A stretch of DNA of 22,301 nucleotides. Source: a virus. Made by a program: the position numbers and the translations under genes. Of the stretch, positions 3,533 through 17,287 are shown piece after piece. Each line of letters opens with the position of its first letter. Position 1 is the first letter of the stretch. Location of the stretch: positions 1 to 22,301 of IMG/VR virus record IMGVR_UViG_3300030012_001345; one strand, written 5' to 3'. The notes beneath the pieces were generated by a model. That model was not told the origin of the DNA and ran no database searches. It worked only from the letters and a program-made list of their open reading frames with translations.

Positions 3533-3561
3533 TTGACAAAATGAAAAAACTGTGATATAAT
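3533..3561 (+). promoter_or_regulatory. Perfect consensus sigma70 promoter, rightward, no gene behind it
   Basis: TTGACA at 3533-3538, a 17-base spacer and TATAAT at 3556-3561, a full match to the sigma70 consensus with ideal spacing. It points into about 590 bases without a convincing coding frame, so its product is probably an untranslated RNA (see 3568-3771). The nearest rightward gene starts at 4150. Confidence 0.8.
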
Positions 3562-3631
3562 CTATTCTAACTATAGGGGGTTAAAGCATACCCCTAGTCA
3601 ATCTTTTTAACTCAGTCCTGAGTCTATATAT

Positions 3632-3646
3632 GTTCTATACAAGTTC
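3632..3646 (+). promoter_or_regulatory. LexA-type SOS box 1 (GTTC-N7-GTTC)
   Basis: GTTC at 3632-3635 and GTTC at 3643-3646 with exactly seven bases between, the direct-repeat operator described for alphaproteobacterial LexA. It is the first of four such sites, all in gene-free DNA. It lies about 65 bases downstream of the predicted start of the 3533 promoter, where a bound protein would act as a roadblock. Confidence 0.55.
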
Positions 3647-3725
3647 ATGACATACCCCAAAATAATTTTACTGGGACTCCCCCGTCAATATTTTGACACC
3701 AAATATGATTTGTCGATAATTTTTT

Positions 3726-3771
3726 GGGGGTACCCTTTTTATTCTACACTCGTAGTCCCCTTGTTTTTTTT
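3726..3771 (+). terminator. Probable rho-independent terminator of the control-region RNA
   Basis: A GGGG run (from 3726) pairs with CCCC (3757-3760), with an inner 4-bp CTAC/GTAG hairpin over an ACTC loop, and a run of eight Ts begins a few bases later (about 3764-3771). The long, interrupted loop makes this weaker than the other terminators in the window. Confidence 0.4.
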
Positions 3772-3794
3772 GTCCCCATCCCTTAAATGTCTTA

Positions 3795-3811
3795 TTTAGA
3801 ATTATTCTAAA
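3795..3811 (+). promoter_or_regulatory. Irr-type iron-control element, copy 1
   Basis: A 17-base palindrome, TTTAGAA-TTA-TTCTAAA, that matches in all 14 defined positions the ICE consensus TTTAGAANNNTTCTAAA reported for the iron/haem regulator Irr of alphaproteobacteria (recalled from the literature). It begins a module repeated at 3864. It could equally be the operator of an unknown phage or host repressor with a GAA-N3-TTC core. Confidence 0.5.
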
Positions 3812-3838
3812 CTAGTAAGAATCCTTTTTTTTATAAAG

Positions 3839-3853
3839 TGTTATAATATAACA
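3839..3853 (+). repeat. Perfect palindrome containing TATAAT, copy 1
   Basis: TGTTATA-A-TATAACA is a perfect 7-1-7 palindrome with a TATAAT inside it. It recurs as a one-base variant at 3890-3904, in the same order relative to the Irr-type palindrome. It looks like an operator placed over a -10 box, though no -35 fits this copy. Confidence 0.5.
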
Positions 3854-3863
3854 GTAAATCTTA

Positions 3864-3880
3864 ATTAGAATTGTTCTAAA
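3864..3880 (+). promoter_or_regulatory. Irr-type iron-control element, copy 2
   Basis: ATTAGAA-TTG-TTCTAAA matches 13 of 14 defined positions of the same consensus and lies 69 bases after copy 1. Its TTGTTC half overlaps a possible -35 for the TACAAT at 3893-3898 (16-base spacer), so binding would cover that promoter. Confidence 0.5.
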
Positions 3881-3898
3881 TTAGCAAAGTGTTACAAT
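3871..3898 (+). promoter_or_regulatory. Weak candidate promoter inside the duplicated module
   Basis: TTGTTC (3871-3876), a 16-base spacer and TACAAT (3893-3898). The -35 sits in the second Irr-type palindrome and the -10 in the second TGTTA palindrome. The consensus match is modest; the interest is that both elements fall in repeated palindromes. Confidence 0.3.
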
Positions 3899-3904
3899 AT
3901 AACA
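3890..3904 (+). repeat. TGTTA..TAACA palindrome, copy 2
   Basis: TGTTACAATATAACA, a one-base variant of the palindrome at 3839-3853, followed in both copies by the same GTAAATCTT. The two copies show that a module of about 60 bases has been duplicated in tandem. Confidence 0.5.
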
Positions 3905-4081
3905 GTAAATCTTTTATAGTCTTTACTTGTCTTTTGATTGTCTTTATCTATTCCAATAAATCCTATATTCCTTTAATAAAACTATCCTACAACCTATATT
4001 GATTTTAATTCAATCTGAATAAGTTTAAACAAATCAATAATTTAATTGTTTAAAATGTATCACCAAAAACTATTTTATTTT

Positions 4082-4096
4082 GTTCATATTACGTTC
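4082..4096 (+). promoter_or_regulatory. LexA-type SOS box 2, on the promoter of the 81-aa gene
   Basis: GTTC (4082-4085), seven bases, GTTC (4093-4096). The second GTTC coincides with the -35 region (4092-4097) of the promoter ending in TATAAT at 4115-4120, the right place for repression of the gene at 4150. Confidence 0.55.
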
Positions 4097-4120
4097 ATAT
4101 TGATATGTAATTATTATAAT
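4092..4120 (+). promoter_or_regulatory. Promoter of the 4150-4632 gene pair
   Basis: A perfect TATAAT at 4115-4120 with CGTTCA at 4092-4097, 17 bases upstream. The -35 is poor, but the position, 30 bases before the start codon and ahead of a good SD, is ideal. It overlaps LexA-type box 2. Confidence 0.5.
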
Positions 4121-4659: not shown

Positions 4660-4696
4660 AGCCCAGATTAATTAATTTTTTTCTGGGCTTTTTTTT
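4660..4696 (+). terminator. Rho-independent terminator after the 4150-4632 unit
   Basis: AGCCCAG (4660-4666) pairs with CTGGGCT (4683-4689), seven base pairs extended by one A-T, followed by a run of eight Ts. It ends the two-gene unit and is followed at once by a 25-base element repeated at 6246. Confidence 0.9.
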
Positions 4697-4697
4697 A

Positions 4698-4722
4698 TCT
4701 AAAAAAGAACAAAACTAGAACA
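4698..4722 (+). repeat. 25-base direct repeat, copy 1 (contains a LexA-type box)
   Basis: A 25-base element starting TCTAAAAAAGAAC. It is identical to 6246-6270 except for one base (C at 4715, G at 6263). Both copies directly follow the T-tract of a terminator and both contain GAAC-N7-GAAC. Confidence 0.85.
4707..4721 (+). promoter_or_regulatory. LexA-type SOS box 3 (GAAC-N7-GAAC)
   Basis: GAAC at 4707-4710 and 4718-4721 with seven bases between; on the other strand this is GTTC-N7-GTTC. It lies inside the 25-base repeat, about 210 bases upstream of the gene at 4933. Confidence 0.55.
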
Positions 4723-4932: not shown

Positions 4933-5796
4933 ATGTTAAAACCAACAATAAAATATGATTTATCAAATTTAGAAAACATTCTATTTGATAGTTATAAATT
5001 TACTGCCAAAGAATTGGCAAAGCATTATATTGATTTAATATATTCTAACGATAAAAATATAAAAGCATTTAATGAATTTCCAAAAAATTTATTATCAATA
5101 GAAAAAGATAGTAAAACAATTAAATCAACAAATATTGAAAATAAATTAACTGCTATCCAATATTTATATCCAACAAAACAATCTTGCAATTATGCAAAAA
5201 TTGCGAATTGTTCTAAAGGGTGCTTAAAAGATTCTGGACATTCTTTAATATTTCAAAATGTTAATTTATACAGATTGAGAAAAGCATTGTTCAAAATGCA
5301 ATATACGAATCAATATATAGATTTATTAAAAAAAGATACTGATAAATTTTTATTACAATGTAATAAAAGAAAATTAGAACCTTGTATTAGATTAAATGGG
5401 ATTACTGACTATGATTATGAAAATGATTTTTTAATTTTTGATGAAATAATAAAACCTTATACTGATAAACATAATATAAAATTCTATGATTATACAAAAA
5501 ATGCCAATAGAAATACACAAGGTTATATTGATTTAACTTTTTCTTATAGTAATGAAAAAAGATATCAAAAATATGTTGATATTGCATTAAATAAAGGTAT
5601 GAGAATTGCAGTAGTGTTTAAGGATAAAGATACTTTAGAATATTATCAAAAGCATAGTTTTTTAAATAGAAAAGTAATTGATGGAGATAAACACGATTTA
5701 ACCTTTATTCACGATAACGATATTATATTAGGTTTAATTGCTAAGGGAAATTTAAAAAAAGATAATGATAATAACTTTATTGTTACTAAACCATAA
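4933..5796 (+). CDS. Conserved phage protein with N-terminal Cys cluster (DUF7227/Gp88-like)
   Basis: 287 residues from ATG 4933, SD AAGGAAAAA upstream. The first 80 residues are variable. Then comes a Cys motif, SCNYAKIANCSKGC (C-x7-C-x3-C, residues about 84-97), which could ligate zinc or an iron-sulphur cluster. The rest carries the signature I associate with a widespread family of phage proteins of unknown function: CIRLNGITD, then IKFYDYTKN, an LTFSYS strand, RIAVVFK, VIDGDKHDLTF and ILGLIAKG. This order resembles successive strands of a barrel. Family names such as DUF7227 or Gp88 come from memory and may be off. It stands alone behind its own promoter with a Fur-type box and a LexA-type box upstream, which fits, but does not prove, a metal-linked role. 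Confidence 0.75.
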   Translation: MLKPTIKYDLSNLENILFDSYKFTAKELAKHYIDLIYSNDKNIKAFNEFPKNLLSIEKDSKTIKSTNIENKLTAIQYLYPTKQSCNYAKIANCSKGCLKDSGHSLIFQNVNLYRLRKALFKMQYTNQYIDLLKKDTDKFLLQCNKRKLEPCIRLNGITDYDYENDFLIFDEIIKPYTDKHNIKFYDYTKNANRNTQGYIDLTFSYSNEKRYQKYVDIALNKGMRIAVVFKDKDTLEYYQKHSFLNRKVIDGDKHDLTFIHDNDIILGLIAKGNLKKDNDNNFIVTKP

Positions 5797-6041: not shown

Positions 6042-6069
6042 TTGACAATAAAAAAAACCTATGTAATAT
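6042..6069 (+). promoter_or_regulatory. Promoter of the structured-RNA locus
   Basis: TTGACA (6042-6047), a 16-base spacer and TAATAT (6064-6069; four of six). It lies between the terminator at 5972-6011 and the foldable region starting at 6077, giving that region its own start and stop. Confidence 0.55.
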
Positions 6070-6076
6070 ATAATTA

Positions 6077-6244
6077 CTAACTTATGGAAAATTTGAGTAT
6101 ATCAATCCATAAAGGTTAATAACAACCTTTTAAACTGGGTTATTCTAGGGATTAGAATTTAGGTGCAAGTCCTAATTTTTCCAAAAAAAGATAAGTTAGA
6201 TTGCAGGAAAAGGTGGTTGACGCAATCCAATCACCTTTTTTTTT
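6077..6244 (+). ncRNA. Structured non-coding RNA with tRNA-like 3' half
   Basis: About 168 bases bounded by a promoter and a strong terminator. CTAACTTAT (6077-6085) is perfectly complementary to ATAAGTTAG (6191-6199), a 9-bp closing stem. Inside it GGAAAAT (6086-6092) faces TTTTTCC (6176-6182): six pairs plus one mismatch, the size of a tRNA acceptor stem. Immediately before the 3' strand is a 5-bp stem with a 7-base loop (TTAGG-TGCAAGT-CCTAA, 6159-6175), like a T arm; before that a 6-bp hairpin (6142-6158), like a type II variable arm. An A (6183) sits at the discriminator position. The loop has G instead of T at position 55, the anticodon-like region (6124-6141) pairs poorly and there is no normal D arm, so it is not an ordinary tRNA. 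Alternative pairings (TTATGGA/TCCATAA; AAAGGTT/AACCTTT) suggest more than one fold. Confidence 0.65.
6208..6244 (+). terminator. Terminator of the structured RNA, loop complementary to upstream bases
   Basis: AAAAGGTGGTTG (6208-6219) pairs with CAATCACCTTTT (6228-6239), twelve pairs including one G-T, over an 8-base loop, then nine Ts. The loop contains GCAATC (6222-6227), perfectly complementary to GATTGC at 6199-6204, so a pseudoknot or a competing antiterminator stem is possible. Confidence 0.9.
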
Positions 6245-6245
6245 G

Positions 6246-6270
6246 TCTAAAAAAGAACAAAAGTAGAACA
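6246..6270 (+). repeat. 25-base direct repeat, copy 2 (contains a LexA-type box)
   Basis: Twenty-four of 25 bases match 4698-4722. As in copy 1 it begins just after a terminator T-tract. Confidence 0.85.
6255..6269 (+). promoter_or_regulatory. LexA-type SOS box 4 (GAAC-N7-GAAC)
   Basis: GAAC at 6255-6258 and 6266-6269 with seven bases between, inside the second 25-base repeat and about 70 bases upstream of the promoter at 6337. Confidence 0.55.
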
Positions 6271-6401: not shown

Positions 6402-6584
6402 ATGAAAATAAAAAATTTGATTAAATTTGTTTTAAACACTCACAAAAAAAATAAACCTTTACCAAAAGACATAGTAGAAATATTAGAAAATGGTCAAGTG
6501 TTTAGTGAGAGTAGGCAACAATTTATAAATATTGCTGACTTAGATTTTTTACATTTAATCAGAACAATAAATAAAAAACTTTAA
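6402..6584 (+). CDS. Unknown 60-aa basic protein, first gene of the operon
   Basis: 60 residues (MKIKNLIKFVLNTHKKNKPL start) behind a clear AGAAAGGA site. It has a basic N-terminal third, a middle segment PKDIVEILENGQVFSESRQQ and an IADLDFLHLIRTI tail, so probably two or three short helices. No cysteines, membrane segments or known motifs. It is the first gene after the promoter at 6337 and is followed 23 bases later by the next gene with a similar SD. Its position just behind a LexA-type box and an inverted repeat suggests early or regulated expression; function unknown. Confidence 0.75.
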   Translation: MKIKNLIKFVLNTHKKNKPLPKDIVEILENGQVFSESRQQFINIADLDFLHLIRTINKKL

Positions 6585-15202: not shown

Positions 15203-15590
15203 TAGAAAAAAGTTTGACCTTGACTTAGCTTATGGTCAGGTCAGAGAAGATGCCATAAAGGATATGCTTCAAGATAAAAAGATTGAAGTAAAATCTGAAC
15301 GTGATGTATGGCAAAAGACTGGTAACATTGCGATTGAATATGAAAGTTATGGTAAACCTTCAGGGATTAATGCGACTGAAGCTGACTACTGGTTTCATAA
15401 TCTTTGTGTGGGTGAAGATGTTTATGCTACGTTAGTATTTAAAACTGACAATCTAAAAAAGATTATTAATTCTTTAGACAGAAAAGTTTCAGTAAGTGGT
15501 GGAGACCATAATGCTTCAAAGATGTATTTAATTAATTTACAAAAACTATTTGCCATACAAACCATAAAAGATTATATTCAGGTTAAATGA
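15177..15590 (+). CDS. PD-(D/E)XK-like nuclease of phage replication module
   Basis: 137 residues from ATG 15177 (AAGGA upstream; a second ATG two codons later). The sequence DLDLAYGQVREDAIKDML followed by KIEVKSERDVWQKTGNIAIE looks like the core of a PD-(D/E)XK fold: an acidic residue in helix 1 (E24), a strand with E-V-K (E37, K39), then IEYES. The YGKPSGINATEADYWFHNL segment is conserved in related phage proteins between primase and polymerase. It probably nicks or resolves DNA during replication. It overlaps the primase gene by 26 bases and the polymerase by four (ATGA). The fold call is by motif and position only; a metal-binding D between the two acids is not certain. Confidence 0.7.
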   Translation: MAMKPTKDNRKKFDLDLAYGQVREDAIKDMLQDKKIEVKSERDVWQKTGNIAIEYESYGKPSGINATEADYWFHNLCVGEDVYATLVFKTDNLKKIINSLDRKVSVSGGDHNASKMYLINLQKLFAIQTIKDYIQVK

Positions 15591-17287
15591 GAACAGTATT
15601 AGACATTGAAACTGATTCACTTGATGCAAAAAATATTCATTGTGTTGTTGCCAAGAACATTGATGAAAATAAAACCTATTCATTTGTAGGTGAAGATTGT
15701 TACACCAAACTACCTAACTTTATTAACAATTATTGTAAAGAAATCATAATGCATAATGGTGTTTCATTTGACGCACCAGTTCTAAATAGATTACTCAATA
15801 CAAAAATAACCATTGGACAAATAACTGATACATTAATTATGTCACAGTTATACAATCCTGAAAGAGATAAAGGTCATTCACTTGATTCCTGGGGTGAACG
15901 TATTGGTTTAAATAAAATTGAGTTCAATAACTTCTCACAGTTTAGTCAAGAGATGTTAACGTATTGTAAAAGAGATGTTGATGTAACTCATCAAGTTTAT
16001 AAAAGATTAATTGTTGAAGGTAAAAACTTTTCTAAAAAATCTTTAAGACTTGAGCATGATATACGTTCAATTATAACTAGACAAGAGAACAATGGTTTTT
16101 ATTTAGACCAACAAAAAGCAAGTAACTTATATGCTATGCTTGAAGATAAAGCTGAACAGTTAGAAAAAGAAGTACATAAAACTTTTCCACCATTAAAGAT
16201 TGAAGAAGAATTTATTCCTAAAGTAAATAATAAATCTCGTGGCTATGTAAAGGGTGTTCCTTTTACTAAAGTTAGTTATCAAGAATTTAATCTTGCATCT
16301 CGTAAACAAATAGCTGAACGACTTATGAAGTTAGGTTGGAAACCAAATAAGTTTACTGATAAAGGTTCACCTATTGTAGATGAAGGTGTATTGTCAAAGA
16401 TAGATAACATAGCTGAAGCTAAATTAATTTCTGAATATTTATTATTAAAAAAGAGAACGTCACAAATAACTTCATGGTTAGATGTTGTGAATGAAACCAC
16501 TGGTAGAGTTCATGGGCGTGTTCTTACTTTACGTTGTGTGTCAGGTAGAATGAGTCACCACTCACCCAATATGGCTCAAGTTCCTGCAGTTTATTCACCT
16601 TATGGTAAAGAGTGTAGAGAGGTATGGACAACTGACAAACCTGATACTCACGTTATCTTTGGTACTGATGCTTCAGGACTAGAGTTAAGAATGTTAGCAC
16701 ATTATATTGATACACCTGAGTACACAAATGAAATATTAAATGGAGATATTCATACAAGAAATATGAATATGGCAGGACTTACAAATAGAGACCAAGCTAA
16801 AACTTTTATCTATGCCTTTTTATTTGGAGCAGGTGCAAAGAAGATTGGTCAAATAGTTGGTTCAAAAGATATGGCAGTTGGTAAAAAACTTATTGATAAA
16901 TTTTTATCTGAACTTCCTAAATTAAAAAACTTTAGAAACCAAGTAGAAGAAGCTGCGAATATGGGTAAGGTAAGAGGTTTAGATGGTAGACTATTTAATG
17001 TACGTTCACCACACAAAGCAGTTAATACTATTGTTCAAGGTGCAGGAGCAATAGCTTGTAAAGTTTGGTTAAGACAAATGATAAACTTAATTAATAAATC
17101 AGGTATTGATTCTAAACTTGTAGCTTCAATACATGATGAGTATCAATTTGAAGTACATAAAAAAGATGTAGAAGAAATGGGTAGGATTGTAAAGACTGCT
17201 ATTCAAAATACTACTGAAGAGTTAACCCTGAAATGCCCACTGGATGCAGAGTTCAAGACTGGTTTGAGTTGGGCAGAGACACACTAA
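15587..17287 (+). CDS. polA: DNA polymerase I-type (family A), T7-like with 3'-5' exonuclease
   Basis: 566 residues. Proofreading domain: Exo I LDIETD (D6, E8), Exo II HNGVSFDAPVL (about 56-66), Exo III YCKRDVDVTH (127-135). Polymerase domain: motif A GTDASGLELRML with D361, motif B RDQAKTFIYAFLFGAG (401-416; R401, K405, Y409), motif C ASIHDEYQFEV with H516, D517 and E518. At 566 residues it is compact next to T7 gp5 (704). Y409 takes the place of E. coli Phe762 and T7 Tyr526; in viral metagenome studies Tyr or Phe here is linked to fast, mainly lytic phages and Leu to temperate ones. No thioredoxin-binding insertion is obvious. Coupled to the nuclease gene by ATGA. Confidence 0.97.
   Translation: MRTVLDIETDSLDAKNIHCVVAKNIDENKTYSFVGEDCYTKLPNFINNYCKEIIMHNGVSFDAPVLNRLLNTKITIGQITDTLIMSQLYNPERDKGHSLDSWGERIGLNKIEFNNFSQFSQEMLTYCKRDVDVTHQVYKRLIVEGKNFSKKSLRLEHDIRSIITRQENNGFYLDQQKASNLYAMLEDKAEQLEKEVHKTFPPLKIEEEFIPKVNNKSRGYVKGVPFTKVSYQEFNLASRKQIAERLMKLGWKPNKFTDKGSPIVDEGVLSKIDNIAEAKLISEYLLLKKRTSQITSWLDVVNETTGRVHGRVLTLRCVSGRMSHHSPNMAQVPAVYSPYGKECREVWTTDKPDTHVIFGTDASGLELRMLAHYIDTPEYTNEILNGDIHTRNMNMAGLTNRDQAKTFIYAFLFGAGAKKIGQIVGSKDMAVGKKLIDKFLSELPKLKNFRNQVEEAANMGKVRGLDGRLFNVRSPHKAVNTIVQGAGAIACKVWLRQMINLINKSGIDSKLVASIHDEYQFEVHKKDVEEMGRIVKTAIQNTTEELTLKCPLDAEFKTGLSWAETH

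Follow-up and report, generated by a model that had tools for sequence, protein, structure and literature searches.

Small RNAs with which phages act in trans are encoded by short intergenic units that carry their own promoter and intrinsic terminator and contain no useful open reading frame (ORF). The RNA described here comes from a unit of the same layout. It differs from the phage RNAs described so far in that none of them matches it in sequence or through Rfam, and in its probable host group, SAR11. SAR11 phages rank among the most abundant viruses known, and no described small RNA of any SAR11 phage was found in the literature that we searched.

Riboswitch and attenuator leaders have in common with this RNA a multi-hairpin domain closed by a helix P1 with a terminator directly after it. 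Here, however, the next gene has its own promoter, an antiterminator is unfavoured and there is no Rfam match. In the bacterial Y RNAs of the YrlA type paired ends enclose a tRNA-like module, an arrangement that is also seen here. With type II tRNAs the RNA shares a T-loop hairpin and a possible arm directly 5' of this hairpin, but it has neither a D nor an anticodon arm, its acceptor is at chance level and a 9-bp helix lies outside the acceptor. Since T-loops occur repeatedly in non-tRNA RNAs (PMC4810234), a T-loop hairpin alone is no proof of tRNA descent.

Source phage and position of the unit

The analysed stretch of DNA, called the window in the following, is a virus fragment of 22,301 bases from IMG/VR. 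Its DNA polymerase (15587-17287) is nearest to those of the Pelagibacter phages HTVC115P, HTVC103P and HTVC104P (50-52% identity). The phage is related to the HTVC103P-type pelagiphages, of which HTVC103P is the namesake (PMC8528129), and its host is probably SAR11. The RNA unit is located in an early region of small genes between a Gp88-family gene and a 60-aa ORF (Table 1). The latter has a promoter of its own, which is present in relatives with or without the RNA.

Table 1. Coordinates of the RNA unit, its neighbours and further structured elements (window positions unless a contig is given)
Feature	Position	Strand	Remarks
Gp88-family gene	4933-5796		Pfam PF17338; upstream neighbour
Sigma-70-type promoter TTGACA-N16-TAATAT	6042-6069	+	10/12; predicted start ~6076
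Closing helix P1, 5' strand	6077-6085	+	pair probability 0.92-1.0; invariant in 4 members
5' hairpin, GGA/TCC and UUGA/UCAA	6086-6108	+	UUGA/UCAA part gone in L041
7-bp hairpin AAAGGUU-AAUAAC-AACCUUU	6111-6130	+	probability 0.6-1.0; invariant
Hairpin CUGGG/CUAGG	6135-6148	+	preferred over "variable arm" 6142-6158; 2 varying pairs remain paired
T-arm-like hairpin UUAGG-UGCAAGU-CCUAA	6159-6175	+	5 bp, 7-nt loop UGCAAGU
Closing helix P1, 3' strand	6191-6199	+	perfect 9 bp with 6077-6085
Intrinsic terminator, hairpin and U run	6205-6244 (hairpin 6205-6242)	+	-16.8 kcal/mol, z -3.8
60-aa ORF	6402-6584		downstream neighbour; start of the operon at 6402 in the leader reading
GGTGCAG hairpin element	L200:2735-2845, L059:2377-2487, L064:2126-2236, L077:2303-2413		ten more in the alignment
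Self-complementary insert	L200:2829-2951		also L049, L052-L055, L058, L059
L003-type structured element	L003:3490-3601	minus	also L002, L004, L008, L009, L013, L021

A self-contained unit with above-chance folding

The original prediction, made from the letters of the window, had described an independent structured RNA with its own promoter, a strong terminator and no useful ORF. All three parts were recovered. The complete promoter-RNA-terminator unit spans 6042-6244, with an RNA of about 165 bases. The promoter is kept in two of the homologous contigs presented below, L041 and L044; the third, L040, reads TAACAT. Within the RNA only a tiny ORF occurs (6084-6119, MENLSISIHKG); it is without ribosome-binding site and its frame is lost in L041. 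The predicted 5' end coincides with the start of the 9-bp helix by which the entire RNA is closed. In a scan of about 65 related loci on both strands, the combination of a promoter, a 9-bp helix at the start site and a terminator was seen solely in this RNA and its homologues.

When folding was compared with that of shuffled sequences, a z-score of -4.0 was obtained for the full unit and of -2.96 for the body without the terminator, for which 2 of 200 shuffles folded equally well. The predicted closing helix was recovered with high pair probability (Table 1). As a repeat it is not improbable by chance: the AT-rich window holds 23 perfect 9-bp inverted repeats at the spacing of P1, such that P1 alone is not rare. 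The T-arm-like hairpin was likewise confirmed, with 5 bp and a loop of 7 nt. The 6-bp "variable arm" placed next to it was not, as it reached a probability of only 0.19; the partner of 6135-6139 in the favoured fold is instead 6144-6148. Once P1 is open, the 5' hairpin can be extended to UUAUGGA/UCCAUAA.

That 9-bp inverted repeats are common in the window, and that the RNA has few members and is variably present, would fit a spacer relic that has no function and folds simply as a result of AT-rich inverted repeats. We consider this quite unlikely given the fold z-scores, the unique combination of parts and a compensatory change in the T stem (see below).

Homologues at one locus and block-wise presence

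The RNA was found in three other IMG/VR contigs, L040 (also L035), L041 (also L019) and L044 (also L089). All four copies share one locus, with the same 60-aa ORF downstream. The unit is missing from six syntenic contigs (L042, L043, L045, L046, L047 and L048, with L047 equal to L048 at the site), which retain the upstream terminator as well as the downstream promoter. Because these relatives lack exactly the promoter-RNA-terminator unit, it behaves as an insertable RNA-gene cassette, and because they retain the downstream promoter, the next gene is independent of the RNA unit. The RNA body is identical in the window and L040, although the adjacent coding stretches show a difference of 5-7%. 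For L041 and L044, conservation of the RNA is not above that of the spacer behind it. Run on 22 related records plus 93 additional loci, a covariance model built from the four members retrieved only the known ones. Viral contigs were also scanned with patterns of the T-arm core, of P1 together with its conserved ends and of the terminator, which yielded zero further members.

A search for compensatory changes had been proposed for the helices 6077-6085/6191-6199 and 6086-6092/6176-6182. Among the four members the first helix is invariant and the second shows only a change from A-U to G-U. The sole compensatory change affects 6161/6173 in the T stem, where A-U is replaced by G-C in L044. The T-loop hairpin, which holds this pair, is accordingly the best-supported inner element of the predicted fold. 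Column shuffles equalled the observed covariation score in 121-141 of 500 cases, and with just four near-identical members the fold is not decidable by covariation. A further informative position is G6137, which is A in L041 and L044. This substitution breaks the anticodon-like pair 6108/6137; within the competing hairpin of lowest energy, 6135-6139/6144-6148 of the favoured fold, it turns G-U into A-U and the hairpin is kept. Small as the numbers are, the favoured fold is accordingly better supported than the tRNA-like one, without being established.

Evaluation of a cis-acting leader

The main rival to a stand-alone RNA is a cis-acting leader (attenuator, riboswitch-like or put-like), in which P1 and the inner hairpins would sense a signal and their state would select between the terminator and an alternative fold that permits read-through into the operon at 6402. 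A closing helix with a terminator immediately behind it is how riboswitches are usually laid out, and all four copies precede the same 60-aa ORF. Moreover, the 5' strand of P1 has a second partner (UUAUGGA/UCCAUAA), which was equally stable in 1.9% of shuffles. GAUUGC (6199-6204), which starts at the end of the P1 3' strand, could pair with its complement GCAAUC (6222-6227) in the terminator loop; with the loop and 3' arm of the terminator, 4.2% of random 20-mers from the window pair equally well. However, the promoter of the downstream ORF is also kept in the RNA-less relatives. When the P1 pairs were penalised the terminator still formed in all members, and in step-wise folding of the growing chain an antiterminator was never favoured at full length. 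A leader appears unlikely to us. A pseudoknot between GAUUGC and the terminator loop was ruled out by reasoning, as no linker spans the 15-bp stem, and a T-box resemblance (GGUGGU in the terminator) was dropped for want of Rfam support.

Likeness to tRNA

The 3' half of the RNA had been taken as tRNA-like, either as a tRNA mimic or as a decayed type II tRNA, which would be processed by tRNA enzymes. The T-loop hairpin indeed carries equivalents of G53-C61, U54, C56 and A58, a cloverleaf-like fold lies just 2.2 kcal/mol above the best fold and the GGTGCAAGTCC arm also occurs in other viral tRNA-like sequences (L005, L015). Each shuffled window yields 0.2 hairpins of the T-arm type (0.07 under strict pairing). 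The 7-base acceptor-like helix with one mismatch did not rise above the level of shuffles: 58% of the shuffled T-arm-like hairpins (0.117 of 0.20 per shuffle) had an acceptor partner with a single mismatch or none, and since this is more than half of them the helix carries no weight. The cloverleaf reaches a probability of about 0.2; its pair probabilities were 0.25 for the acceptor and 0.19 each for the variable arm and the anticodon-like stem, which is moreover disrupted by the G6137 substitution in two of the four members. As had been noticed at the outset, the 5' half forms neither a normal D nor a normal anticodon arm; there is also no G18-G19 equivalent and position 55 is G. ARAGORN reported 0 tRNA genes in the window and its relatives. 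An Rfam search of the window gave no match at gathering and only chance matches at E 10, with no tRNA among them, and on the loci of the relatives likewise only chance matches. The expectation that the RNA is neither a standard tRNA nor a member of a known family was thus borne out, while descent from or mimicry of a tRNA has become very unlikely.

A Y RNA of the YrlA kind is not supported, as Rfam returned no Y RNA at gathering or among the weak matches; a TROVE (Ro60) gene was present in 0 of 8 related phage records.

A tRNA-derived phage attachment site was considered as well, as the T-arm and acceptor-like 3' end resemble tRNA-borne sites and a HTVC019P-type pelagiphage integrates at tRNA-Cys (PMC12753301). 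Against this, the 22-base tRNA-like 3' end (one position free) had a single hit among 84,980 species genomes, in a Cytophagales bin that is unrelated, no integrase match was obtained among the proteins tested and the four members differ within the would-be core. This reading is already largely refuted and hardly credible.

The 17-base T-arm pattern also matched viral tRNA-like sequences and, in about 13 contigs, another structured element (the L003 type); beyond the hairpin, these have nothing in common with the RNA of the window. The L003-type element lies behind a promoter-like site, has the ends GGGAAACAAAA/TTTTGTTTCTC and the hairpin GTTAGGTGCAAGTCCTAAC, and is matched weakly by marine single-cell viruses and by Synechococcus phage S-SSM7; Rfam gave no match.

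Further elements in the window and its relatives

Direct repeats of the form GAAC-N7-GAAC, which we take to be the alphaproteobacterial LexA-box form, occur five times in the window, both strands counted (3632, 4082, 4707, 6255 and 6675), with 0.44 expected and a maximum of 3 in 100 shuffles. One of them lies directly behind the RNA terminator and is present also in RNA-less relatives. Small arrays are found in L199 and L201.

In more distant relatives a separate hairpin RNA element, GGTGCAG...TATG-TGAAAG-CATT...CTGCACC, is located upstream of early genes. Its inner stem shows compensatory changes, the scanned loci gave no Rfam match, and in L200 it precedes the 60-aa ORF that also follows the RNA of the window. 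Behind this hairpin lies a long self-complementary insert with the closing stem GGTAGCTAGA/TCTAGCTACC, which is shortened in L065 and absent from L064 and L077; it looks like a palindromic inserted element.

In the window region 3535-4120 a strong promoter (TTGACA...TATAAT) precedes the hairpin CTATAGGGGGTTAAAGCATACCCCTAG, and for about 550 bases no plus-strand ORF is listed; the arrangement is conserved in L044:355-960. In L044:1720-1850 a promoter-like site is followed by the ends ATGATAAAAAATAT...ATATTTTTTATCAT around a noncoding stretch, possibly another closed-end leader. TCTAAAAAAGAACAAAA lies behind two terminators (window 4691-4722 and 6240-6270) and is repeated in the window and relatives; it may be a joint for the exchange of promoter-gene-terminator cassettes.

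Discussion

Rather than a tRNA, this is probably a small regulatory RNA. From the sequence we give an even chance to its unit being a stand-alone gene for an early phage small RNA that acts in trans. The gain or loss of the cassette leaves the neighbouring promoter untouched, and this speaks for a stand-alone transcript with a role in trans. Transcription by the host RNA polymerase would begin from the consensus promoter at about 6076 and end near 6244 at the terminator. The ends of the RNA would pair as P1 around three to four hairpins, the T-loop hairpin included, and closed ends and terminator would provide a stable early transcript. Of the readings that had been suggested, the new small RNA has held up, being self-contained, folded above chance, present at the same locus in homologues, gained or lost as a block and without known family; the tRNA mimic or decayed type II tRNA has not.

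Most likely, exposed segments would base-pair with messages of the phage or the host, or the T-loop hairpin would bind a protein. The GGAAAAA ribosome-binding sites of the phage have a complement in AAUUUUUCC (6174-6182), and the segment 6174-6190, one of seven tested, outdid 99% of its own shuffles in binding to 29 phage start regions. With correction for the seven segments no target is singled out, and we regard AAUUUUUCC as a weak lead for an anti-ribosome-binding-site segment. Antisense matches within the window do not exceed 11 bases. More speculatively, the RNA could belong to a new class that is not a tRNA but, early in infection, displays a T-loop hairpin in a closed stem to engage host tRNA machinery (RNase P, the ribosome or a tRNA-modifying enzyme); we regard this as a long shot.

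Judged on these data, the unit appears to be a gene for an orphan small RNA, a new family of an ordinary kind. If it were merely a spacer relic, it would have no consequences. As a small-RNA cassette that varies at one site among close phages, it would be a natural experiment, and a clean one, on the contribution of such RNAs to infection.
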